Below, in pieces: positions 5,680 to 62,181 of a stretch of DNA of 64,000 bases. Position 1 is the stretch's first letter. Every line of letters begins with the position of its first letter. The position numbers and the translations under genes were made by a program. Below the pieces are notes generated by a model. That model was not told where the DNA came from and made no database searches. It was given only the letters and a program-made list of their open reading frames with translations. Source of the DNA: Pyrococcus kukulkanii (GTDB lineage Archaea; Methanobacteriota_B; Thermococci; Thermococcales; Thermococcaceae); contig NZ_JARRIB010000002.1 of assembly GCF_041647995.1 (NCBI RefSeq), positions 1 through 64,000 of the forward strand, written 5' to 3'.

Positions 5680-6075
5680 GCGTCCCATGGCATAGTGGAG
5701 TAGCTCATCCCAGTCTAAGTTCAGTTGTAACCCTTCAATGCCGAACATCGTCCCTACAGTCGTGAAGATGAAGTAGAGAGCTATGAAGCTCATGAAAAAG
5801 CCAAACTCTGCAGTTAAGGCCACTATAAGTGAATCCTTTACATTGACTCCCTCTATTATTACAAAGAGCAACGTAAAGGCAAATGCTGCTAATAGGTGAA
5901 CGAAGAGTAATAGAAAGACAGAAACTCCAGATACAACAAGGAGCGCCAACTTCCTAGGCCTCTTGTACGTGAATATCTCAAATCCCGTCTTTAGGAACTC
6001 ATAATATGCAAAGATTCCAACGACTAAGACGAGAAAATCAGCCGGCTTTATGAAGGGATATGCCGAGAGGCTCAT
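5674..6075 (-). CDS. Small membrane protein, function unknown
   Basis: 133 aa from the ATG at 6075, chosen for the GGAGGGAAAAGG ribosome site directly upstream. Four hydrophobic stretches (about 12-28, 42-66, 72-90 and 95-115) predict a polytopic inner-membrane protein. I do not recognise the family. The start lies inside the 3' end of dph2 (38 bp overlap), so the two are probably co-transcribed and coupled. Confidence 0.75.
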   Translation of the reverse strand: MSLSAYPFIKPADFLVLVVGIFAYYEFLKTGFEIFTYKRPRKLALLVVSGVSVFLLLFVHLLAAFAFTLLFVIIEGVNVKDSLIVALTAEFGFFMSFIALYFIFTTVGTMFGIEGLQLNLDWDELLHYAMGRS

Positions 6076-7072
6076 CCTTTTCCCTCCTTCCCCCTGGAAT
6101 TTCATCGAACTCATATTCCTCTTTTAGTCCAAGCAACAACTCAATTTCCCTGGGCGTTAAAACTGGCTTCCTCCAGTTTTCGTAGTCATCTATTGGAACC
6201 CTTGGGCATGCAACCACTACATAGGCGTCAAAGGGAAATCCCTCAAGCTTCATGTAACTTATTTCGTTCATGATTATAAGCCTTGCCTCTCTCCCATGCT
6301 CCCTCAAGAGCTGCACAATTCTCTCAGCCTCCTTGAGCCTTAGCTGGCCTTTCTTGGTGCTTACTATAACGCCAAATCTTTTAGCGTCAATAGCCTTAGC
6401 TATTTGGGCCCATCTCTTTCTTATGAACTTCTCTTTGAGCTCCTCCATCCACATGAAGTCACCGCTGTAGGGATTTATTGCCAGAACACTCTTTTTCGTT
6501 GACAAGGCGAGACCAAGTGGATGAAAGATTCCTGAGCCTATGAACAAAATTCCATCTCCCTCAGCCTTTGCAGCTGAGTAGTTGCATCCAAGCACTTGAC
6601 CAGCCCAGGAAACCCTTGAGTCTCCCTTGCCTATTATAACCTGAAATCCATTTTTCTCTAAGAATTTCTTCGCTTCTTCGAGCTGATGTATATGCTGTGC
6701 CGTTGTTACGAGAATTATCTTTTTCCCTAGTTTCCTAATCTCTTCAATGTTTTTCCTTAAGGCCTCAATCACATCAACTTTCGCAAAGGCGGGAACGAAT
6801 ATCGTTGGGACTTCTAGGTGGAGCTTCATGTAGGAGTGGCCCAGATGTATCAACGCGTCGCAACCTAACAGCTTAGCCTCTTTATCTGCCGGATCGCAGG
6901 CACCGTAATTTATTTCACCATGGATTATCGCATTTATCCCATTCTCCTCTAAGAACGCCGCAAGCTCGTAGGCTTCCCTTCTGAGGCCTTCGGGGGACTG
7001 AATGAGAACTTTCTTGGCATTTAACTTCTGAAGTTCCCTTAAGATATCATTTTTAGGGATTTCGTGAAGCAT
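6038..7072 (-). CDS. dph2: Diphthamide synthase Dph2 (noncanonical radical-SAM enzyme)
   Basis: 344 aa. Dph2 transfers the 3-amino-3-carboxypropyl group of SAM onto the target histidine of elongation factor EF-2, the first step of diphthamide synthesis. The three cysteines that hold the [4Fe-4S] cluster are spread over three domains: YGACDPAD (about 57-64), LGCNYSAAKAEGDG (about 162-175) and VACPRVPIDD (about 285-294), the arrangement known for the archaeal homodimer. The methylating partner dphB lies at 30049-30846. Confidence 0.96.
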   Translation of the reverse strand: MLHEIPKNDILRELQKLNAKKVLIQSPEGLRREAYELAAFLEENGINAIIHGEINYGACDPADKEAKLLGCDALIHLGHSYMKLHLEVPTIFVPAFAKVDVIEALRKNIEEIRKLGKKIILVTTAQHIHQLEEAKKFLEKNGFQVIIGKGDSRVSWAGQVLGCNYSAAKAEGDGILFIGSGIFHPLGLALSTKKSVLAINPYSGDFMWMEELKEKFIRKRWAQIAKAIDAKRFGVIVSTKKGQLRLKEAERIVQLLREHGREARLIIMNEISYMKLEGFPFDAYVVVACPRVPIDDYENWRKPVLTPREIELLLGLKEEYEFDEIPGGRREKDEPLGISLHKAG

Positions 7073-30850: not shown

Positions 30851-31276
30851 TCACCTCCCAAGGAGCTCTAGAAACTCTCGGGGTGTATATGCGGGGATTA
30901 TACCTTCAACATCCGCTTTTAGATTTAGATCTCCAGTTATCAAAATTGCACGCCTATGGAGTGCGAGTGCAACATAAGGGACGTCTCCTTTGTCTCTACA
31001 CAGCTTTACTGCTTTTTTTAATTCATTTTCAAAGAGCTCTTTTGGGACGGACGTTGAGTATAGCTTTAGTATCGATAGCATTTTTTCGAACTCTTCCTGA
31101 CTTAGCTTTGTGTGTCTGAGGAGCTTCTCTTCATGCTTTTCAAACTCCTCCCAAAAGTACTCTGGGACTAATATCCTTATTGTGGGATCAAGAATCAGGG
31201 CAACAAGAAGGAGATATGAAGTTCCCTTCTTCTGAAATGCTGAGAATACAACGTTATAGTCCAAAACGACCTCCAT
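30851..31276 (-). CDS. PIN-domain RNase (VapC-like toxin)
   Basis: 141 aa from the ATG at 31276; a longer start at 31303 overlaps the upstream gene. PIN motifs: VLDYNVVFSAF (first Asp at residue 4-5), WEEFEKHEEKL (Glu), CRDKGDVPYVALAL (Asp), LITGDLNL (Asp). It should be a metal-dependent single-strand RNase. The gene immediately upstream, encoding a small charged protein, overlaps translationally (TAAGATG) and is the expected antitoxin. The frame is intact. Confidence 0.85.
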   Translation of the reverse strand: MEVVLDYNVVFSAFQKKGTSYLLLVALILDPTIRILVPEYFWEEFEKHEEKLLRHTKLSQEEFEKMLSILKLYSTSVPKELFENELKKAVKLCRDKGDVPYVALALHRRAILITGDLNLKADVEGIIPAYTPREFLELLGR

Positions 31277-31277
31277 C

Positions 31278-31511
31278 TTACAGAACCCCGTACCTTCTGG
31301 CAAGGGCCTCTTTTAGCTCCCTCTCTAATTCTTTTGCATCTTCTTCCTTGAGTTCGCTTTTTTCTAGTATTCTTAATAGCTCCTCCGCCCTCTGCAACCT
31401 TTCCTGTATCTCCTTTATTATCTCGAGCTTTATATCCTCCACAATCCTCTCACTTAGGTATTTCTCGAGGCTTTCAGGTATCTTCACCCTGACGATTATC
31501 TCACTGCTCAA
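31278..31511 (-). CDS. VapB-like antitoxin candidate
   Basis: 77 aa, highly charged. The N terminus (IIVRVKIPESLEKYLSERI) resembles a ribbon-helix or MazE-like opening, followed by an amphipathic helical coil (LQRAEELLRILEKSELKEED). Placed one base before the PIN-domain gene and starting in ATGA overlap with the upstream MBL-fold gene. Pairing with the PIN protein is inferred from position and size. Confidence 0.72.
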   Translation of the reverse strand: MSSEIIVRVKIPESLEKYLSERIVEDIKLEIIKEIQERLQRAEELLRILEKSELKEEDAKELERELKEALARRYGVL

Positions 31512-38775: not shown

Positions 38776-39189
38776 ATGAGAGTTGTTAAGAAGGAGCTCC
38801 ACTTTTCAACGAAGGGCGAAATAGATCTGGTGGATATAACACGCGAAGTCGAGAAGTTTGTCGAAGAGAGTGGAATAGCCAATGGACAGGTCTTAATTTT
38901 CGTTCCTGGGGCCACGGGAGCTATAATTGCCATAGAGCATGAAGAAGGCCTTTTAGAGGACTTTAAGAGGTGGCTTAGGGAGGTCATACCAAAGGAAAGG
39001 CATTACCTCCACAACAGGTTCGACGACAATGCCCACTCCCACCTAAGGGCCACCCTGCTCGGCCCGAGCTTGGTCTTTCCGATAATTGATGGGGAACTAA
39101 TGAGGGGAACCTGGCAGCAGATATTCTTCGTTGAGCTAGATACTAGACCGAGAAGAAGGAGAGTCATACTTCAGGCCATCGGAGAATAG
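38776..39189 (+). CDS. YjbQ / UPF0047 family protein
   Basis: 137 aa from the ATG at 38776 (GGGTGG upstream). The conserved HYLHNRFDDNAHSHLRATLLG stretch (about 77-97) and GTWQQIFFVELDTRPRRRRV (about 113-132) define the family, with His and Asp residues forming a metal-like site. Members have secondary thiamine-phosphate synthase activity. Its 3' end overlaps the converging peptidase gene by 26 bp. Confidence 0.9.
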   Translation: MRVVKKELHFSTKGEIDLVDITREVEKFVEESGIANGQVLIFVPGATGAIIAIEHEEGLLEDFKRWLREVIPKERHYLHNRFDDNAHSHLRATLLGPSLVFPIIDGELMRGTWQQIFFVELDTRPRRRRVILQAIGE

Positions 39190-39796
39190 TCCTCCAGAGC
39201 TCGTTCGCATGGACTATAAACCACCATTTCTTCAGCTCCCTCCTCTTCTCCTTATAGTCTGGGTGGAATTTGGAGACTATGGACCAGAACTTTTTGCTGT
39301 GCCTCATTTCTATCAGATGAGCTAATTCGTGCGTCACGAGGTAGTGAAGCAAGTTATGGGGAAGGGCCGCTGAAGCGAGGTTTATCGTTATCGACTTCCT
39401 CCACGTTGCCGTCCCCCACTTGTTCCTCATCGGGATTATGTAGATCCTTTTGGGCCTTGCACCTATCCTTGGGGATACCTCGTCAACTATTTCCTTAACC
39501 TTTGTTCTGAGATGTTCCCTTATCTCCTCCCTCAGTTCCCCAGGATCACCACCCAATTCTATGAACTCCCCAAACAAGGGGAAGCCCTTTTTACCCTGAG
39601 CTAGGGCTTCTTCAACGATCTCAAGCTTCGAGAGAATCCATTTTCTCTTTTCCATGAGAACTTTCTCCACTATCCTCTCATCCGGCGTCGTGACAAGTAG
39701 GGTTCCGTCTTCGAGAATTCTTATTGTGACGTATCTAACAGGTTTAACTTTAACCCTGTATCTAACCGTTTTCCCATTGAGATTTATCGCCCTCAT
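39164..39796 (-). CDS. YgjP/SprT-like metallopeptidase (DUF45)
   Basis: 210 aa. The zinc motif is VTHELAHLIEMRHSKKFW (about 164-181), HExxH with a third His nearby. The N-terminal half (VKPVRYVTIRILEDGTLLVT) and NKWGTATWRKSITIN are typical of the COG1451 family. It is probably a cytoplasmic zinc peptidase of unknown substrate. Minus-strand gene just downstream of the DUF3226 gene. Confidence 0.88.
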   Translation of the reverse strand: MRAINLNGKTVRYRVKVKPVRYVTIRILEDGTLLVTTPDERIVEKVLMEKRKWILSKLEIVEEALAQGKKGFPLFGEFIELGGDPGELREEIREHLRTKVKEIVDEVSPRIGARPKRIYIIPMRNKWGTATWRKSITINLASAALPHNLLHYLVTHELAHLIEMRHSKKFWSIVSKFHPDYKEKRRELKKWWFIVHANELWRTILRWPEV

Positions 39797-39805
39797 TGGA
39801 ACCCC

Positions 39806-40531
39806 TTATTGAATGAATTCTCTTATACTTTCAACAACGTAGTCTGGCAATTCATTGATAGAACTCCAGCTGAAAATCTCGGATATTAGCTCAAATGTTC
39901 CATAGTCGGGATCCTTGCATAAAGATTCTAGAATTTTGACTATTGCTTTTTGAGTTGGTTCTTTTCCTTTCTTTTCCTTGTAGAAGTCTATTGCTTGGCC
40001 TATTATGTGTTTAAAATTTTCGTTGCTAAGTGCTAAGTCAAGAATTAAGTCTTCTATTTCATGTTGTAGAACATTAAATCCAAGCTTTTCTTCTATCCTT
40101 GTATCTCCAAGAGGAATAACAATGACATCAAGCTCACAACCTTTACATCTACACTTAAATGAAAAGTTCCCTTCTTTAACAACTTCATATTTAGACTTTA
40201 GAACGTGCTCAATTGAACTTAACAATCCTTGAACGGTTTTATCGTCGAGATCAATAGCAAGCCCTATTTTTGAAACTCCTCTCTCGCACCAATTTATGAT
40301 TTGACTTTCAGCCTTTATAGTTCCAATTACCGACTTTGACCCACCTCCTAATGGGTAAAATATGAAAATTTCCTCGTTTTCATTTCTTAAAACAGTGAAT
40401 TTCTTGTAATTTAGCCCCAGTTTTTCCCATAAGTAGTTATATTTAACCCTTGCTCTTTGAAATCCCAGTTTGGTTAGTAAATTTGATAGAAATTCCATAT
40501 CCCTCGTTCCTTCACAGAGCAACACTTTCAT
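39806..40531 (-). CDS. DUF3226 TOPRIM-like protein
   Basis: 241 aa. The start MKVLLCEGTRDMEFL carries the TOPRIM Glu (residue 7) and IGLAIDLDDKTVQ (about 90-102) the DxD pair. A zinc-like CRCKGC lies mid-protein. DUF3226 belongs to the OLD/DUF4435 nuclease-like TOPRIM group. It starts 3 bp after the AAA ATPase gene, in the order ATPase then TOPRIM seen in split OLD nucleases and PARIS-type defence modules. Nuclease activity is inferred. Confidence 0.82.
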   Translation of the reverse strand: MKVLLCEGTRDMEFLSNLLTKLGFQRARVKYNYLWEKLGLNYKKFTVLRNENEEIFIFYPLGGGSKSVIGTIKAESQIINWCERGVSKIGLAIDLDDKTVQGLLSSIEHVLKSKYEVVKEGNFSFKCRCKGCELDVIVIPLGDTRIEEKLGFNVLQHEIEDLILDLALSNENFKHIIGQAIDFYKEKKGKEPTQKAIVKILESLCKDPDYGTFELISEIFSWSSINELPDYVVESIREFIQ

Positions 40532-40534
40532 TCC

Positions 40535-41530
40535 TCATCCCCTCAAATCGGCCTCCAATTCCCTTCTTCTGAATTCTGCTTCCTCCCTATCAAATGAGAT
40601 GTACTCCAAAACGCCGTCCTTTATCGTGGGAACGAAGAATTTAATATCGATATTCTCACACTTCAGCAATATATCATCTATCAGCTCAAGGCTATGCGTG
40701 CTTATGAATATCTGATTGTCTTTTGCGGCCTTACAAATCCCCTCAACTATAAGTTTGCGTGAAGAGGGATGTTGGTAGTTTTCAGGCTCCTCACACAGGA
40801 TGTACCCATATTTAACGCTCATAAGGTAAGCTAGATATATATACGCTGATCTGAACCCATCTCCCATGACAAAAAAGGGTACCTTGCCTTTTTTGTAAAC
40901 AATTTCGGGGCCAACCCCCTCTGAAAATATCCTAATATCCTTAACATCGGGGTATACTGTCCTCAGAACCTCTATCAATCTTTCGTGAGCCTCGTATCCT
41001 CTCTCAAATACCATATTATATGCATTAGTGGGCGTTTTCCCGTATATCGATTGGTTATCTATGAACGCTACATCGCCAGGCGGTTTCTTGTCTTGTTGTT
41101 CGTAGATTTTCTCAAATTTACCTGAAATGTCAAAATAAAGACGATATTTTGTGGATGAATTATCAGCTTTAAAGGTTACCTTCAATGCAATGATATCTCT
41201 CATAAAACCATACGTCTCCACGAGAAACTGGATCTCATCCGTTGTAGGCATAGCAGGTTCAAGCGTCACGTGAGATATATCTGACGATATTACAATAGGC
41301 TCCTCTACATTTTTAAATCTGAAAAGCGAGAAAATGCTGTCAAAACCATGCCATCCTCTACGCTTGACTATTTGGGGAATTAAATTGTGATCTAGATTTA
41401 TCGCAAGTGCCTCCAGAATTGTTGATTTTCCGCTATTATTCCTTCCGATAAATATGTTGAGTTGTGCGAATCCCTCAATTTTCCCCTCGCTTATCCCTCT
41501 AAAGTTCTTAATTTCTAATTTCTTGATCAT
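40535..41530 (-). CDS. AAA_15/SMC-like ATPase (OLD / PARIS AriA-like)
   Basis: 331 aa. It starts MIKKLEIKNFRGI with P-loop GRNNSGKST (about 29-37). A short signature-like GDGFRSAYIYLA (about 225-236) precedes Walker B YGYILCEEPE (about 244-253), and ISTHSLELIDD is the H-loop. No long coiled coil is present, unlike true SMC or Rad50. It is followed within 3 bp by a DUF3226 TOPRIM gene; together they look like a split OLD-type defence ATPase-nuclease. Divergent from trm10. Confidence 0.85.
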   Translation of the reverse strand: MIKKLEIKNFRGISEGKIEGFAQLNIFIGRNNSGKSTILEALAINLDHNLIPQIVKRRGWHGFDSIFSLFRFKNVEEPIVISSDISHVTLEPAMPTTDEIQFLVETYGFMRDIIALKVTFKADNSSTKYRLYFDISGKFEKIYEQQDKKPPGDVAFIDNQSIYGKTPTNAYNMVFERGYEAHERLIEVLRTVYPDVKDIRIFSEGVGPEIVYKKGKVPFFVMGDGFRSAYIYLAYLMSVKYGYILCEEPENYQHPSSRKLIVEGICKAAKDNQIFISTHSLELIDDILLKCENIDIKFFVPTIKDGVLEYISFDREEAEFRRRELEADLRG

Positions 41531-41616
41531 CTTTATCTCCCGACATTTTTGAAGTGTGGTCTTATATCACATTTTTGCTCATAAGATTTAAAAACAAACC
41601 CTCAATTCGGCCAACG

Positions 41617-42726
41617 ATGAAGAGGCCGGGAGAAATTCTCAGGGAAATCCTGAAGGAGAAAGGAGTTGAGAGCATTGGAACACTCTCACGAAAATGGCCG
41701 AGTGGTGAGGATATCTATCAAGAATTGGCCTTACTTCTTCTGGAGGGGGATGGGGCGATAGTTAAGCTTGGTGAGCCCGTTAAGGAATCCTGGGATTTAG
41801 AAGGGAGGAAGAAAGGGCCTTCTCTTTACGCTTACGTTAGGCCCTGCATGGTGGATAAGTTTGAGGTAGTGGTGAGTAGGGAAGACCTACTGCACAAGTT
41901 GCCCGACTATCCCTGGATAATTGTTGACCTCATGTTCTGGGATAAGCACATACCAAAGGAAAAGGGAAAGGTTAGCCTTCAGCTCAGGGAAACCTACGCC
42001 GTTATGAGGAGGATGTTCTGGCCGAGGAGGTTGGCAATAACTTGGGTCAACGAGGAGTTCAAGAGGATGAGCAAGCTACCACTTAACAAGATTGGGGCCT
42101 TTGAAGGATCCACCGCGGAGTTCCTCAAATTGAAGGAAATAGAGAGGGTAGTTCTTCTAGATCCAAACGCCCAGGAAGTTCTATCCCAGGATGATCTAAA
42201 AGAGAAGGCGTTCATAATCGGTGGCATAGTGGATATGAAGGGTGACAAGAAGGGAACTACCGCCAAGATCGGAGAGGAGCTGGAGTCTAAAGGCATTGAA
42301 GTGCTTAGGAGGAAGATAGTCTTAAGGGGAGACATCGTAGGAGTCCCGGATAGGATAAACCACATAGCAGAAATTTTACTTAGAATGCTATATGGAGAGA
42401 ATATGGAAAAGGCAATCTTAGCCGTTCAAGCTCCAACACACGCAAGGTGGAGGCTCAGGAAGGAGATCCCAAAGAGGAAGATCCGCTATCTAATAGACGG
42501 GAAATTGTACCTTGTCGTCGAGAAAGAGCTTTATGACGAGTTAAAGCAGTGGCTTAACATAAGGTGGGAGGACTTCGTCAAGGTTCTTAGGGAAACCGGC
42601 ATGGTGGCCCTAGAGAGGAGGAGGATTCACCACTTAAACAAGATCTCGGTTTACAGGCTCGATAGGAGTGGGGGTAAAAGGGTTATTCTACTTAAGAGGG
42701 CCGCTCTGCTGTGCTACAATTGTTAA
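41617..42726 (+). CDS. trm10: Archaeal tRNA (purine-9-N1)-methyltransferase Trm10
   Basis: 369 aa from the ATG at 41617; TATA-like GATTTAAAAA at 41586-41595 predicts a near-leaderless mRNA. It is a SPOUT-class enzyme: FIIGGIVDMKGDKKG (about 206-220) and GDIVGVPDRINHIAEILLRM (about 245-264) form the knotted SAM site. The archaeal enzyme methylates N1 of A9 and/or G9 of tRNA. The C-terminal extension is archaea-specific. Confidence 0.88.
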   Translation: MKRPGEILREILKEKGVESIGTLSRKWPSGEDIYQELALLLLEGDGAIVKLGEPVKESWDLEGRKKGPSLYAYVRPCMVDKFEVVVSREDLLHKLPDYPWIIVDLMFWDKHIPKEKGKVSLQLRETYAVMRRMFWPRRLAITWVNEEFKRMSKLPLNKIGAFEGSTAEFLKLKEIERVVLLDPNAQEVLSQDDLKEKAFIIGGIVDMKGDKKGTTAKIGEELESKGIEVLRRKIVLRGDIVGVPDRINHIAEILLRMLYGENMEKAILAVQAPTHARWRLRKEIPKRKIRYLIDGKLYLVVEKELYDELKQWLNIRWEDFVKVLRETGMVALERRRIHHLNKISVYRLDRSGGKRVILLKRAALLCYNC

Positions 42727-42804: not shown

Positions 42805-44064
42805 ATGGCCATGAACGTTGAAGCCTTGAAAAGGATATTGGTGGATCAGAGGGAAATAATGAAGGAAAAGCTAAAACAGGGTAAGATCATTGAAAGGGAA
42901 CTTAAAATTGTCCCAAAATTTCCCCATGCTTATATAATTACGGGTGTCAGGAGGGCGGGAAAGTCCACACTTGCGTTTATTTCATCTCAAAATCCCCTGT
43001 ACGTGAACTTTGAAGATCCAAACCTCTTGGGTTTTGATATTAAAGATTACATGAAGCTTATCCAGGCTGGATATGAGGTGTTTGGTTATTTTGATACAAT
43101 AGTGTTTGACGAAGTTCAGGAAGTCAAGAGATGGGAAAAGATGGTGTCCTTTCTCATGGAGAAGTACAAAGTAATAGTCACTGGAAGCAATGCAAGGCTA
43201 CTTTCCCATGAGTTTTCTACTTACCTAACCGGGAGGTACCTCAAATTCACCCTCTTTCCATTCTCTTTCAGGGAGTTTTTAACGTACAAGGGGGTCTCTT
43301 TAAACGTGTATAGCACTAGGGACATCGCGAGTGTGAAAAAACTTCTGAACGAGTACATTAAGATTGGAGGATTTCCAGAGGCGTTGAAACTTGGCAGAGA
43401 GTTTCTTATCAACCTGTATGATGACATAATAACTAGGGATGTCGCAGTTAGGTACAACGTGAGGAATTTCAGGGAGCTTAAGGAGTTAGCGTTTTACGTG
43501 CTTTCAAATTTTTCGGCTAGGATAACGTACAACAAACTGAAGAACTTATTCAAAATTGGTAACCTGCAGACTGTAAAAAACTACATTGAGTATCTAACGA
43601 GTGCATATTTGATATTTGAGGTTCCAAAATTCTCCTTTAAACTTAAAGATCAGCTAACGGGAGAGAGGAAAGTGTATACAGTTGACGTTGGGTTAATAAA
43701 TGCTATAGTCCCTAGGATCTCCGAAAATATTGGAAGGATAATGGAGAATTTAGTCTTCTTAGAGCTGATGAGGAGGAAGCACTACAGGGAAAAGGACATC
43801 GAGATCTACTACTATAAAGACACGAGAGGTCGGGAAGTTGACTTCCTAATTGTTAGCGGGAGAGAGAAAGAGGCAATTCAGGTAACTTATGCCTCCGACG
43901 TAGATGAGATACCCAAGAGGGAAATTAACAATCTAATTGCCCTCTCAAAAGAGTTTGGGCTAAGGGAGGGAATTATCATCACGTGGGATCTTGAAGATGA
44001 AATGGTGGTGGAAAATGTTAAGTTGAAGTTCATACCAATCTGGAAGTTCCTTATAAAAGGTTAA
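42805..44064 (+). CDS. AAA_14 / DUF4143 ATPase
   Basis: 419 aa. P-loop GVRRAGKST (about 48-56) and Walker B DTIVFDEVQEV (about 96-106); TGSNARLLSHEFST and YLTGRYLKFTLFPFSFREF are AAA_14 hallmarks. The C-terminal DUF4143 part includes a winged helix and REVDFLIV...EAIQVTY, a degenerate PD-(D/E)XK-like pattern. Function unknown. A second ATG two codons later (42811) is possible. It is divergent in sequence from the other three ATPases in the window but has the same layout of ATPase plus DNA-binding or nuclease-like tail. Confidence 0.85.
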   Translation: MAMNVEALKRILVDQREIMKEKLKQGKIIERELKIVPKFPHAYIITGVRRAGKSTLAFISSQNPLYVNFEDPNLLGFDIKDYMKLIQAGYEVFGYFDTIVFDEVQEVKRWEKMVSFLMEKYKVIVTGSNARLLSHEFSTYLTGRYLKFTLFPFSFREFLTYKGVSLNVYSTRDIASVKKLLNEYIKIGGFPEALKLGREFLINLYDDIITRDVAVRYNVRNFRELKELAFYVLSNFSARITYNKLKNLFKIGNLQTVKNYIEYLTSAYLIFEVPKFSFKLKDQLTGERKVYTVDVGLINAIVPRISENIGRIMENLVFLELMRRKHYREKDIEIYYYKDTRGREVDFLIVSGREKEAIQVTYASDVDEIPKREINNLIALSKEFGLREGIIITWDLEDEMVVENVKLKFIPIWKFLIKG

Positions 44065-44132
44065 ACCAGGAACTTTTCCTTCCCTTTAAGTTAGGTGAAG
44101 TGATACCAACTCTGATGGCCTCGGATAGACTT

Positions 44133-44170
44133 AAATTACACACTATGTAATTTACATGGGGTGTAATTTA
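44133..44170 (+). promoter_or_regulatory. Operator-like repeats upstream of second wHTH ATPase
   Basis: AAATTACA (44133-44140) and TGTAATTT (44146-44153) are perfect 8-bp inverted arms with a 5-bp spacer. TGTAATTTA recurs at 44162-44170 (16-bp period) just before the ATG at 44172. The array covers the probable TATA and transcription start. Confidence 0.6.
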
Positions 44171-44171
44171 T

Positions 44172-45242
44172 ATGGTATGTAAAAACATCTTCACTCAAAG
44201 GCCAATCACGAAGCTTGAGTGCCTTTGGGGGAGAGCTCATAGAGAGGCCGTTGAGGAACTCTTAGAAAATTCCATGGAGGGCGAAACATCGGTACTCCTT
44301 GGGCCGAGAAGGATTGGGAAGACGAGTGTCGTTTTGACAATGCTCGAGCTGTTCAAAAGTAAGGGACACTACATTTACTTCAACTTCTCAAGATTCCTAG
44401 GGGCCAAAGCCATCTCAATAGCTGATATAACTCCTCAAAAGACCTCACTGAAGTTCATAACAACTAGCAAAGCCTATAAATTTTCCCTAAAGGGGGTAGA
44501 AGTTGAAGTCAGAAAAACTAGCATAAATGAATTCGTTAGCGATTTCTCGACTCTTGTGAGAGTTTTCTCCGAGAACACGAAGAGAGGTGTTATAGTTTTC
44601 GATGAAGCTCAGGTCTTGGCAAGACTGAAGAATCTCGACTTTAGAGGCCTTATTCAGGAAATTATTGACACGTACACGAACATCTCCTTAATCTTTACGG
44701 GGTCAATGCCAGGGCTACTAGTTAACTACCTAAATCCAAGCCCAGACAGACCTAATTTCATGAGGGGAGCGAGGACAATAACACTTGGAAGATGGAGCAC
44801 CGAGGAGGGTGTGGAGTACCTTAAGAGTGGCTTTGGTAGAGATGATCCGAGGTTTCCACGGATAGTTGAATCCCTGGGAGGCATTCCTGGGTTTTTGGCT
44901 TACTTTGGCCTAACAGCATTAAACATGGGATATCCTAGTCAGGATACCCTTGATTTGGCTCTAATGAAAACACTCGAGTACGCTAAGGAAGAGTGGAGGA
45001 GAGATATTGGGGCCTTCTTAGCCCTGTACAACAGCCCTATCTACACCTCTATCCTTAAAATCCTCGCTAGATCTGAAGTTCCACTTAGGGGCTCGGAGAT
45101 TTACAAATTGCTCGAGGAGAAGCCTAAGAGGATACAGCATGTCTACAAGTACTTAAAGAATTTAGAGAAGGCAGGCTTCGTAAAGTCGAGTGGAAAGAGG
45201 TACTGGATAGAGGATCCAGTGTTGAAGCTTGCATTGTTGTGA
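44172..45242 (+). CDS. Archaeal ATPase (ATPase_2) with winged-helix C terminus
   Basis: 356 aa. P-loop GPRRIGKTS (about 43-51), Walker B GVIVFDEAQVL (about 138-148) and FTGSMPGLL sensor region. The last 70 residues form a wHTH (LRGSEIYKLLEEKPKRIQHVYKYL). It is similar in design to the 35034-36143 gene but only distantly related in sequence. The repeats directly before its start codon could be its own binding site. Function unknown; co-directional with the AAA_14 gene before it and hel308 after it. Confidence 0.85.
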   Translation: MVCKNIFTQRPITKLECLWGRAHREAVEELLENSMEGETSVLLGPRRIGKTSVVLTMLELFKSKGHYIYFNFSRFLGAKAISIADITPQKTSLKFITTSKAYKFSLKGVEVEVRKTSINEFVSDFSTLVRVFSENTKRGVIVFDEAQVLARLKNLDFRGLIQEIIDTYTNISLIFTGSMPGLLVNYLNPSPDRPNFMRGARTITLGRWSTEEGVEYLKSGFGRDDPRFPRIVESLGGIPGFLAYFGLTALNMGYPSQDTLDLALMKTLEYAKEEWRRDIGAFLALYNSPIYTSILKILARSEVPLRGSEIYKLLEEKPKRIQHVYKYLKNLEKAGFVKSSGKRYWIEDPVLKLALL

Positions 45243-58647: not shown

Positions 58648-60216
58648 TCAGAGCGGAATGTTGCCGTGCTTCTTTGGAGGCAACTTGACCCTCTTATTCT
58701 CTAGAGCCTCGAGGGCCATAACTATCTTAGCCCTAGTCTCTGCAGGATCAATAACATCATCAATGTACCCTCTCGATGCAGCAACGTACGGGTTAGCGAA
58801 CTTCTCCCTGTATTCTTGAATCTTCTGTCTCCTGAACTCTTCGGGGTTCTCTGCTTTCGCAATTTCCTTTCTGAAGATGATGTTTGCTGCTCCTTCTGGA
58901 CCCATGACTGCAATCTCTGCCGTCGGCCACGCGAAGACGAAGTCAGCTCCCAAATGCTTCGATCCCATCGCGAGGTACGCTCCACCATAGGCCTTTCTTA
59001 AGATTATAGTGACCATTGGAACCGTTGCTTCGGCGTAGGCGTAGAGAACTTTTGCACCATGCCTGATTATTCCCCTGCTCTCCTGATCAACCCCTGGGAG
59101 GTACCCTGGGACGTCCACGAATGTTACTATTGGGATGTTGAATGCATCACAGAACCTCACAAACCTCGCGATCTTGTCACTTGAGTCAATATCAAGGACT
59201 CCAGCCAAGTGTATTGGATTGTTCGCCACTATTCCCACTGTCTGCCCATTTATCCTTCCAAACCCTATCACGGCGTTGGGTGCGAAGTAGGGTTGTAGTT
59301 CAAGAAAGTCTGGATTGCCGTTCTCGTCCCTGTCAACGATTGAGTAAATTACCTGCCTAACGTCGTAACCTTTGTTTGGATCGTCGGGAACTATGTCATA
59401 GAGTTCTGGTGTTCTTCTGAATGGATCATCTTTAGTTTTGACTCTGGGTGGCTTCTCCATGTTGTTTGATGGGAGGTAGCTCAATAACCTCTTTATTAGC
59501 GCGATTACTTCCTCATCGTTTTTGCCTATTAGATGGGCTTGTCCGCTCTTTTGAGCGTGAACCATTGCGCCTCCCAATTGGACGGGGGTAACATCAACTC
59601 CAGTTACGGCCTTGACCACCTGGGGGCCGGTGATAAACATGAAGGTTGCCGGGTTGTCAACCATTAGGATAAAGTCGCCTATTGCCGGACTGTAAACTGC
59701 TCCTCCCGCGCATGGCCCCATTATGGCCGTAATCTGCGGAACAACTCCACTTAAAACTGTGTTCATCTTGAATATTTCACCATAACCCTTGAGGGAGTCA
59801 ACTCCTTCTTGTATCCTTGCTCCTCCAGAATCGTTGAGGCCTATTACCGGAGCTCCTGCCTCTAGAGCCAACTCCATGATTCTCTTGATCTTCATCGCGT
59901 GCATCTCTCCCAGGGAACCACCCATTACCGTGAAGTCCTGAGCATAGACAAACACCAATCTTCCATCAATCGTTCCATATCCCGTAATTACTCCATCAGC
60001 TGGGAGATCCCTCTTGTCCATTCCGAATTCTGTAGCCCTGTGCTTCACAAACATTCCAATCTCAACGAAGCTTCCCGGGTCAAGTAAAAGCTCAAGCCTT
60101 TCTCTGGCCGTAAGCTTGCCTTTATCGTGCTGCTTCTTTATGGCCCCCTCCCCACCCATTTGCATTATCTTTTTCCTCTTCTCATACAGCTCCTTAACTT
60201 TCTCTTCCATGGTCAT
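58648..60216 (-). CDS. mmdA: Methylmalonyl-CoA decarboxylase alpha subunit (carboxyltransferase)
   Basis: 522 aa from the ATG at 60216, 7 bp after GGGGG; ATGs at 60222 and 60210 are alternatives. Acyl-CoA carboxyltransferase fold: KQHDKGKLTARERLELLLDP near residue 27, FTVMGGSLGEMHAMKIKR (about 95-112), and GGAYSP-type oxyanion loop in GPCAGGAVYSPAIGDF. The C-terminal half has GGAYLAMGSKHLGADF and the AAxRGYIDDVI end. It moves the carboxyl group from methylmalonyl-CoA to biotin. TATA-like CTTTTAAG lies near 60260. Confidence 0.95.
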   Translation of the reverse strand: MTMEEKVKELYEKRKKIMQMGGEGAIKKQHDKGKLTARERLELLLDPGSFVEIGMFVKHRATEFGMDKRDLPADGVITGYGTIDGRLVFVYAQDFTVMGGSLGEMHAMKIKRIMELALEAGAPVIGLNDSGGARIQEGVDSLKGYGEIFKMNTVLSGVVPQITAIMGPCAGGAVYSPAIGDFILMVDNPATFMFITGPQVVKAVTGVDVTPVQLGGAMVHAQKSGQAHLIGKNDEEVIALIKRLLSYLPSNNMEKPPRVKTKDDPFRRTPELYDIVPDDPNKGYDVRQVIYSIVDRDENGNPDFLELQPYFAPNAVIGFGRINGQTVGIVANNPIHLAGVLDIDSSDKIARFVRFCDAFNIPIVTFVDVPGYLPGVDQESRGIIRHGAKVLYAYAEATVPMVTIILRKAYGGAYLAMGSKHLGADFVFAWPTAEIAVMGPEGAANIIFRKEIAKAENPEEFRRQKIQEYREKFANPYVAASRGYIDDVIDPAETRAKIVMALEALENKRVKLPPKKHGNIPL

Positions 60217-60257
60217 GAGCATACCCCCACTGAGTCTGGCTTGATATTTGTAAAGTC

Positions 60258-60381
60258 ACTTAAAAGCATTTTTATCGCTATGAAACAATGTGTGCACTCC
60301 TACATTCCCTCAAATTCTGTTATGACAATTGCTGTATCCCTATCAAACGAACGTCGAATTTTGGATGATCTTTTTAAATCC
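60258..60381. promoter_or_regulatory. Divergent promoter region between mmdA and rli1
   Basis: On the minus strand GCTTTTAAGTG (60258-60268) is a TATA box for mmdA, with start near 60237. On the plus strand TTTTTAAATC (60371-60380) is a TATA box for rli1, with start near 60403. The 100 bp between them show no conserved element. Confidence 0.5.
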
Positions 60382-60411
60382 CCCATTAGAAAAGCCCCAG
60401 GGGGATGGAAA

Positions 60412-62181
60412 GTGAGAATCGCGGTCATCAACTATGATAAGTGCAACCCCGACAAGTGTGGTCATTTTCTATGTGAGCGTGTCTGTCCCGTAAATAGGAT
60501 GGGTGGGGAGGCAATAGTAATAGATGAGGATAACTACAAGCCGATAATTCAGGAAGCAAGCTGTACAGGTTGTGGGATCTGCGTCCACAAGTGTCCCTTT
60601 AACGCTATAAGCATAGTGAACCTACCAGAGCAACTTGAGGAAGACTGTGTCCACCGCTACGGGATCAACGCCTTCGTTCTATACAGGCTGCCCGTGGTCA
60701 AGGACGGAATGGTTGTCGGAATCGTCGGGCCAAACGGTACGGGAAAAACCACTGCGGTAAAAATACTCGCCGGACAGCTTATTCCCAACCTCTGCGGAGA
60801 CAATGACAGTTGGGATGGAGTTATTAAGGCATTCAGGGGCAATGAGCTACAGAACTACTTCAAGAGACTCAAGAATGGGGAGATAAGACCTGTCGTTAAA
60901 CCCCAATATGTGGATTTAATTCCAAAGGCCGTTAAGGGGAAGGTTAGGGATCTGCTGAAGAAAGCCGATGAAACTGGGAAGTTCGATGAAATCGTTAAAG
61001 CCTTAGAGTTGGAGAACGTTCTTGATAGGGAAATACAGCACTTGTCAGGTGGTGAGTTGCAGAGAGTGGCAATTGCTGCAGCCTTGCTAAGGAATGCCCA
61101 CTTCTACTTCTTCGACGAACCTTCAAGCTATCTAGACATAAGGCAGAGGTTGAATGTTGCGAAGGTTATACGAAGGTTAGCAGATGACGGAAAATCTGTC
61201 TTAGTTGTTGAGCACGATCTAGCGGTTCTTGACTACCTAAGTGATATAATCCATGTGGTTTACGGTGAACCTGGAGTCTACGGAATATTCTCCCAGCCAA
61301 AAGGAACAAGAAACGGAATTAATGAATTCCTTAGGGGTTACTTGAAGGACGAAAACGTTAGATTCAGGCCGTACGAGATAAAGTTCACCAAGACAAGCGA
61401 GAGAGTCGAGGTTGAGAGGGAGGTTCTCGTTGAGTATCCAAGGCTTGTAAAAGATTACGATAGCTTCAGGCTTGAGGTCGAGCCTGGTGAGATAAGGAAA
61501 GGAGAAGTTATAGGGATAGTTGGGCCCAATGGTATAGGAAAAACAACCTTCGTAAAGATGCTTGCAGGAGTTGAAGAGCCAACGGAAGGAAAGATAGAGT
61601 GGGATCTAACTGTGGCCTACAAGCCTCAGTACATCAAAGCAGAATACGAGGGAACAGTGTATGAGTTACTAAGTAAGATAGACTCCTCAAAGCTCAGCAG
61701 CAACTTCTACAAAACCGAACTTCTAAAACCACTGGGAATCCCAGACCTGTACGATAGAGAAGTCAACGAACTTTCGGGCGGCGAGCTACAGAGAGTAGCT
61801 ATAGCTGCAACCCTTCTTAGGGATGCCGACATATACCTTTTAGATGAACCCTCAGCGTACCTTGACGTAGAGCAGAGACTGGCAGTTTCTAGGGCCATAA
61901 GACATCTGATGGAGAAGAATGAAAAGACAGCATTGGTAGTTGAGCACGACGTTCTCATGATAGATTACGTTAGCGACAGACTAATGGTCTTTGAGGGAGA
62001 ACCAGGAAGATACGGAAAGGCCCTACCTCCCATGGGAATGAGGGAAGGGATGAACAGATTCCTAGCGTCCGTAGGAATAACTTTCAGGAGAGATCCAGAC
62101 ACAGGGAGGCCAAGAGCAAACAAGGAAGGTTCAGTAAAGGACAGGGAACAGAAAGAAAAGGGAGAGTACTACTACGTCTAA
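60412..62181 (+). CDS. rli1: Ribosome recycling ATPase ABCE1 / Rli1
   Basis: 589 aa from a GTG at 60412 (AGGGGGATGG upstream), since the frame is open further 5' only because the region lacks stops. Two 4Fe-4S ferredoxin-like sites at the N terminus (CNPDKCGHFLCERVC and CTGCGICVHKCPFNA), then two ABC domains with GPNGTGKTT and GPNGIGKTT P-loops, signatures LSGGELQRVAIAAALL and LSGGELQRVAIAATLL, and DEPSSYLD / DEPSAYLD. It splits the ribosome after termination, with aRF1/Pelota. Very highly conserved in archaea. Confidence 0.98.
   Translation: MRIAVINYDKCNPDKCGHFLCERVCPVNRMGGEAIVIDEDNYKPIIQEASCTGCGICVHKCPFNAISIVNLPEQLEEDCVHRYGINAFVLYRLPVVKDGMVVGIVGPNGTGKTTAVKILAGQLIPNLCGDNDSWDGVIKAFRGNELQNYFKRLKNGEIRPVVKPQYVDLIPKAVKGKVRDLLKKADETGKFDEIVKALELENVLDREIQHLSGGELQRVAIAAALLRNAHFYFFDEPSSYLDIRQRLNVAKVIRRLADDGKSVLVVEHDLAVLDYLSDIIHVVYGEPGVYGIFSQPKGTRNGINEFLRGYLKDENVRFRPYEIKFTKTSERVEVEREVLVEYPRLVKDYDSFRLEVEPGEIRKGEVIGIVGPNGIGKTTFVKMLAGVEEPTEGKIEWDLTVAYKPQYIKAEYEGTVYELLSKIDSSKLSSNFYKTELLKPLGIPDLYDREVNELSGGELQRVAIAATLLRDADIYLLDEPSAYLDVEQRLAVSRAIRHLMEKNEKTALVVEHDVLMIDYVSDRLMVFEGEPGRYGKALPPMGMREGMNRFLASVGITFRRDPDTGRPRANKEGSVKDREQKEKGEYYYV

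Follow-up and report, generated by a model that had tools for sequence, protein, structure and literature searches.

Two adjacent genes in Pyrococcus kukulkanii probably make up a mobile module of the ATPase-TOPRIM (OLD-like) type that acts against viruses, and a diverged archaeal member of the PADLOC candidate system PDC-M38. The pair is located in a stretch of 64,000 nucleotides (NZ_JARRIB010000002.1, positions 1 to 64,000, forward strand), which was analysed as a whole and is referred to here as the window. We document the gene order of the pair, its intact motifs, the relationship of its second product to TOPRIM domains, its mobility and the recurrence of the same gene combination on plasmids and in prophages.

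The ATPase gene and the DUF3226 gene

The two genes and their motifs are located in the window as follows:

40535-41530, minus strand: ATPase P0002, 331 aa, ATG start, first gene of the pair
41423-41446, minus strand: Walker A motif GRNNSGKS, P0002 residues 29-36
40787-40792, minus strand: Walker B acidic residue and catalytic Glu, E247-E248 in GYILCEEPE of P0002
39806-40531, minus strand: DUF3226 TOPRIM protein P0001, 241 aa, ATG start, second gene of the pair
40499-40513, minus strand: TOPRIM motif I, EGTRD, P0001 residues E7-D11
40244-40252, minus strand: TOPRIM motif II, DLD, P0001 residues D94-x-D96

An earlier note on this DNA had described an ATPase gene followed within 3 bp by a gene for a TOPRIM-like DUF3226 protein. 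Both open reading frames are present, separated by 3 nt after the ATPase stop codon and in the same frame, and both products score above the Pfam cut-offs. P0002 is an OLD/RecF/Rad50-like ABC-type ATPase without a coiled coil, and matches AAA_15 and AAA_21 with 83 and 68 bits, respectively. Its motifs are all intact, including the Walker A motif GRNNSGKS, the GDG signature, the Walker B motif with the catalytic Glu (CEEPE) and the H-loop STHS. The protein ends in ADLRG, and a [DE]xR tail of this kind was found at the ATPase C-terminus in 30 of 31 aligned sequences, immediately preceding the TOPRIM gene, so that the tail may represent a contact or hinge with the TOPRIM partner.

P0001 matches DUF3226 with 36.4 bits (cut-off 27). 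Alignments with relatives from Thermococcales and with virus-borne relatives show no variation at E7, G8, D11, D94 and D96, and the EGxxD and DxD motifs are likewise present in bacterial DUF3226 proteins. The archaeal and bacterial DUF3226 profiles aligned to each other with a probability of 90.6 and an E-value of 1e-6. Several DUF3226 relatives score above the cut-off for OLD-like_TOPRIM (PF20469), with 25.8 bits, and 27.4 bits at locus L152. We also compared the DUF3226 profiles with a profile built from the TOPRIM portions of OLD-like proteins of archaea using hhalign, which yielded scores of 36.8 and 28.2, while 39 column-shuffled versions of each profile reached maxima of 9.1 and 10.0. 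The landmarks EGxxD, GG(K) loop and DxD were aligned in this comparison, and on these sequence comparisons DUF3226 is a TOPRIM domain. A separate OLD-like TOPRIM domain (65.6 bits) occurs elsewhere in the same genome, in a 695-aa open frame (L123, G000:C6:2668-2859).

Structure prediction added nothing to this assignment. AlphaFold models had pLDDT values of 54 for P0001 alone and 63 for P0001 with five distant virus-borne relatives, and the low-TM matches that Foldseek returned for these poor models in the PDB were disregarded. The PDB entry 2P62 (PH0156), deposited without a function, is a DUF3226 paralogue from the wtp operon described below, identical to the L024 protein and 20-27% identical to P0001. 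A literature search found no paper naming DUF3226 or PDC-M38, and no DUF3226 protein with a reported activity.

For the function of the pair we propose a gate-and-effector logic modelled on PARIS, the best analogue, in which the ATPase restrains a TOPRIM ribonuclease until the binding of a viral protein (PMC12409363); by analogy, the ATPase centre would be the sensor and the TOPRIM protein a two-metal effector. The ATPase would assemble with the DUF3226 protein via the C-terminal [DE]xR tail and hold it inactive. Sensing of a viral trigger, or of a state specific to infection, would probably fall to the variable centre of the ATPase, upon which the TOPRIM protein would be released or activated. 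It would then cut nucleic acid, either tRNA or DNA, using two metal ions coordinated by E7, D94 and D96, and the cutting would stop the virus or the cell. Counting against a defence function are a weak score of P0001 to the PDC-M38B profile (27 bits), the lack of surrounding defence genes, the lack of matches to the window pair in phage and plasmid records, the lack of a known activity for any DUF3226 protein and the presence of solo TOPRIM proteins in about 70 genomes.

A recent insertion between ygjP and trm10

The pair is located between two host genes that are not part of the module:

39787-41582, no strand: approximate inserted segment, with no match to genome G004 between window positions 39786 and 41583
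39164-39796, minus strand: ygjP (metallopeptidase), flanking host gene directly downstream of the pair and on the same strand
41554-42726, plus strand: Trm10/SPOUT-like methyltransferase, flanking host gene, divergent, with homology from about 41620

Three of nine genomes of the genus contain the pair, namely the two of the window's species (G000, the source of the window, and G061) and G003. The spacer between ygjP and trm10 is 54 bp in G006, 63 bp in G001 and 66 bp in G007, all of which lack the pair. The closest relative without the pair is G004, the trm10 gene of which is 96% identical; its spacer (L078, G004:C1:1702000-1712000, about 5710-6300) is about 600 bp in size and contains a PIN_2-like fragment and a small open reading frame, probably a decayed toxin-antitoxin pair. 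The score of the PIN-domain fragment, 18.4 bits, is below the Pfam cut-off.

The G+C contents of the two genes are 0.34 and 0.40, as compared to 0.44 for the window and 0.44-0.49 for most neighbours. Because of the presence in only three of nine genomes, the low G+C content and the empty site in relatives, we consider the pair in the window to be a recent gain. The DNA identity between G000 and G003 is 99.4-99.7% over the pair, 98.2% for trm10, 97.0% for ygjP and 87-94% further out, and the higher identity of the pair than of its neighbours is consistent with a recent spread. The ygjP-trm10 spacer appears to be a small site at which toxin-type genes are exchanged.

The earlier note had suggested that the pair might be part of a defence island, on account of a neighbouring trm10 gene and further ATPases. 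These neighbours do exist, and comprise the trm10-like gene and two AAA ATPase genes at 42805-45242, the latter being AAA_14/DUF4143 and ATPase_2-like genes of common archaeal families located between trm10 and hel308. In G006 both are absent, such that trm10 adjoins hel308, and in G004 the AAA_14 gene is truncated. The proposed island was not borne out, however: the tested neighbours (YgjP, UPF0047, ThiN, flavin reductase, Trm10-like and Hel308) have housekeeping functions, and the tested flanking open reading frames in the window gave no specific defence match to Pfam or PADLOC. At some distance, a diphthine-synthase-like gene has as its neighbour a minus-strand gene (30851-31303) for a full-length PIN_2 protein (69.7 bits), possibly a VapC-type toxin.

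Recurrence of the gene order on mobile elements

The same gene order was found in other archaea and in bacteria. The ATPase gene is located directly upstream of the DUF3226 gene in all seven bacterial plasmid loci fetched, in one of which (L103) the ATPase reading frame is split, in five of five virus-like contigs found and in 15 of 15 wtp-operon loci of Thermococcales. Other archaea contributed eight clear two-gene loci and one fused protein (L141), along with two loci in which the DUF3226 reading frame is broken or short. With this order repeated across unrelated archaea and bacteria, chance falls far short of accounting for the adjacency. The DUF3226 family is sporadic in other archaeal phyla, with 12/398, 1/23 and 0/152 genomes containing a member.

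A tblastn search with P0001 against phage and plasmid records yielded no match for the pair, and the sole match in a scan of genome contigs was to a metagenome-assembled genome of the same species. Searches with the A1 profile against viral contigs, and with the pair from a Citrobacter plasmid against Escherichia coli genomes, were also without a match.

On small plasmids the pair adjoins BrnTA or RelE/NadS genes, while other plasmid and prophage loci are beside tail or integrase genes. The former arrangement would be expected of a plasmid-stabilising or toxin-antitoxin-like selfish module, with the TOPRIM protein as toxin, the ATPase as antidote and virus defence as a secondary effect. The operon-like arrangement of the two genes and the remnant of a PIN domain in the G004 spacer also fit such a module. 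However, it would be unusual for an ATPase of the OLD type to serve as antidote, its hypervariable centre fits a sensor better, and the prophage-borne copies fit superinfection exclusion, and we consider a primarily selfish role unlikely. By analogy with PARIS, itself partly toxin-antitoxin-like, such a role and the anti-virus function that we favour would overlap.

Paralogues in the tungstate transporter operon and solo DUF3226 proteins

A paralogous ATPase-DUF3226 pair is located between wtpB and wtpC in the tungstate transporter operon at 15 loci in Thermococcales (L076, L077, L085, L086, L087, L091, L092, L094, L019-L022, L048, L090 and L093), including one in the window's own genome:

3269-6620 of L076 (G000:C1:624000-633000): wtp-type pair

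In all aligned ATPases from the wtp operon the catalytic Glu is replaced by Ser or Leu, whereas an acidic residue is kept at this position in the window pair and in nearly all relatives outside the operon. In the ATPase tree, the window ATPase forms a long branch beside, not inside, the wtp clade (90/78).

Solo DUF3226 proteins of about 340 aa were identified in about 70 genomes of Thermococcales (for example L003, 1159-2163, and L009, 1189-2238). Their first approximately 100 residues resemble the end of the ATPase (TASLELID...LRKYLDFDLRG) and contain no Walker A motif. Because only this C-terminal remnant of the ATPase is kept, the TOPRIM part can act without the ATPase. At another locus (L025, 661-2555, in G010), an ATPase gene is followed by a gene for a 227-aa protein with EGxxD and DxD-like motifs (EGFND and GDKDGEED) and no match to Pfam, possibly a further TOPRIM family.

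The fixed position of the paralogous pair between wtpB and wtpC, the loss of the catalytic Glu from the ATPases there and the near universality of solo DUF3226 proteins in the family outside Pyrococcus could together indicate a housekeeping or regulatory nuclease pair, active in DNA repair or RNA processing (as RecF/Rad50 with a TOPRIM protein such as RNase M5) or as a tungstate-linked regulator. Yet the window pair has an intact ATPase and its insertion is recent and patchy, wtpB and wtpC adjoin each other with no pair between them in G001 and G006, and the wtp modules have been reshuffled between genomes, which makes a housekeeping function quite improbable.

This reshuffling was evident from several comparisons. 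Among the wtp relatives, the mean pairwise identity of the central ATPase part is 29%, between blocks of 62% and 68%. For G030 and G020, both single-contig assemblies, the central part is 14% identical and the TOPRIM protein 72-84%. For G066 and G094, the C-terminal half of the TOPRIM protein is 100% identical, its N-terminal half 35% and the ATPase 45%, although G094 is a draft that may be chimeric in its assembly. The exchange of modules and the variable centre would be more in keeping with an arms race than with a fixed role in transport.

Returning to an anti-virus function, a more tentative and rather doubtful extension is that an ATPase-TOPRIM cassette for defence has been retained by Thermococcales at a fixed position between wtpB and wtpC, the hydrolysis-deficient alleles of which are swapped module-wise between genomes, that the solo TOPRIM proteins derive from the same stock and that the window pair is an active mobile relative of this domesticated series.

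The results link an archaeal pair, the functionally unassigned DUF3226 family and the orphan structure 2P62 to the class of ATPase-TOPRIM defence systems, and provide a short list of proteins for testing from hyperthermophiles; purification of proteins from such organisms is often easy. The wtp paralogues also represent a natural series in which the ATPase is intact, catalytically altered or lost, suited for probing the role of ATP hydrolysis, and this series is a more interesting lead than the window pair itself.

Comparison with known ATPase-TOPRIM systems

Known anti-phage systems that combine an ATPase with a TOPRIM protein include OLD, Gabija, AbiL, MADS and PARIS (PMC12409363). The combination of an ATPase with DUF3226 is not new, since it has already been catalogued as the PADLOC candidate PDC-M38. 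The window pair resembles PDC-M38 in gene order, in both protein families and in its mobile distribution. Whereas a bacterial pair matched the PDC-M38A and PDC-M38B models end to end with 463 and 263 bits, respectively, the archaeal window pair has diverged: P0002 matched PDC-M38A with 98.8 bits over residues 2-293 of 331, and on the TOPRIM side P0001 gave a remote, partial match to PDC-M38B with 27.1 bits (E = 7e-7, residues 3-140). PDC-M38 is the right label for the pair, with the reservation that it is itself a computational candidate.

The best PADLOC match of P0002 was to AbiLi (119 bits), ahead of PDC-M38A and of AriA (87.5 bits). Membership in AbiL was rejected on the partner, since P0001 gave no match to AbiLii (RloB-like) in PADLOC at E-values up to 1, and none to RloB; one wtp relative matched AbiLii at 0.009. 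A link to MADS mad3-mad4 was also set aside. Some TOPRIM proteins of the wtp type do match the mad4 profile (best 9e-20), and MADS3 was the top NCBIfam match of P0002, but with 49.1 bits as compared to a cut-off of 420, and there were no methylase genes near the pair. The PADLOC mad3 profile also matched an ABC-ATPase at 60127-62181 of the window with 205 bits, and its matches are therefore unspecific and were discounted.

In PARIS, an AriA-type ATPase hexamer binds three AriB proteins. The window pair shares with PARIS the two-gene order of ATPase and TOPRIM protein, the acidic TOPRIM motifs and the match of P0002 to the AriA profile. Nevertheless, AriB belongs to DUF4435 and the partner here to DUF3226; DUF4435 was found in none of the 115 genomes of the phylum, P0001 did not match it, and P0002 scored higher to the AbiLi and PDC-M38A profiles than to AriA. 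PARIS cuts tRNA, and the window pair may cut tRNA or DNA. The membership in PARIS that had been suggested for the pair is thus highly improbable.

The other half of that suggestion, a split OLD nuclease, agrees with our sequence results: the genes form an OLD-like ATPase-TOPRIM module that is conserved as a pair and has the TOPRIM motif residues. Neither observation that the note had named as refuting, a lack of adjacency in other genomes or missing TOPRIM residues, was thus made at the sequence level. P0001 has the ExxxD and DxD motifs and sequence homology to the OLD TOPRIM domain. Unlike OLD and GajA, the module is split into two proteins, and DUF3226 has a C-terminal part of its own. Otherwise the pair resembles OLD, Gabija GajA and the OLD effectors of retrons in combining an ABC-type ATPase with a TOPRIM domain containing EGxxD, GGK and DxD, and at L141 the ATPase and DUF3226 are fused in one protein.
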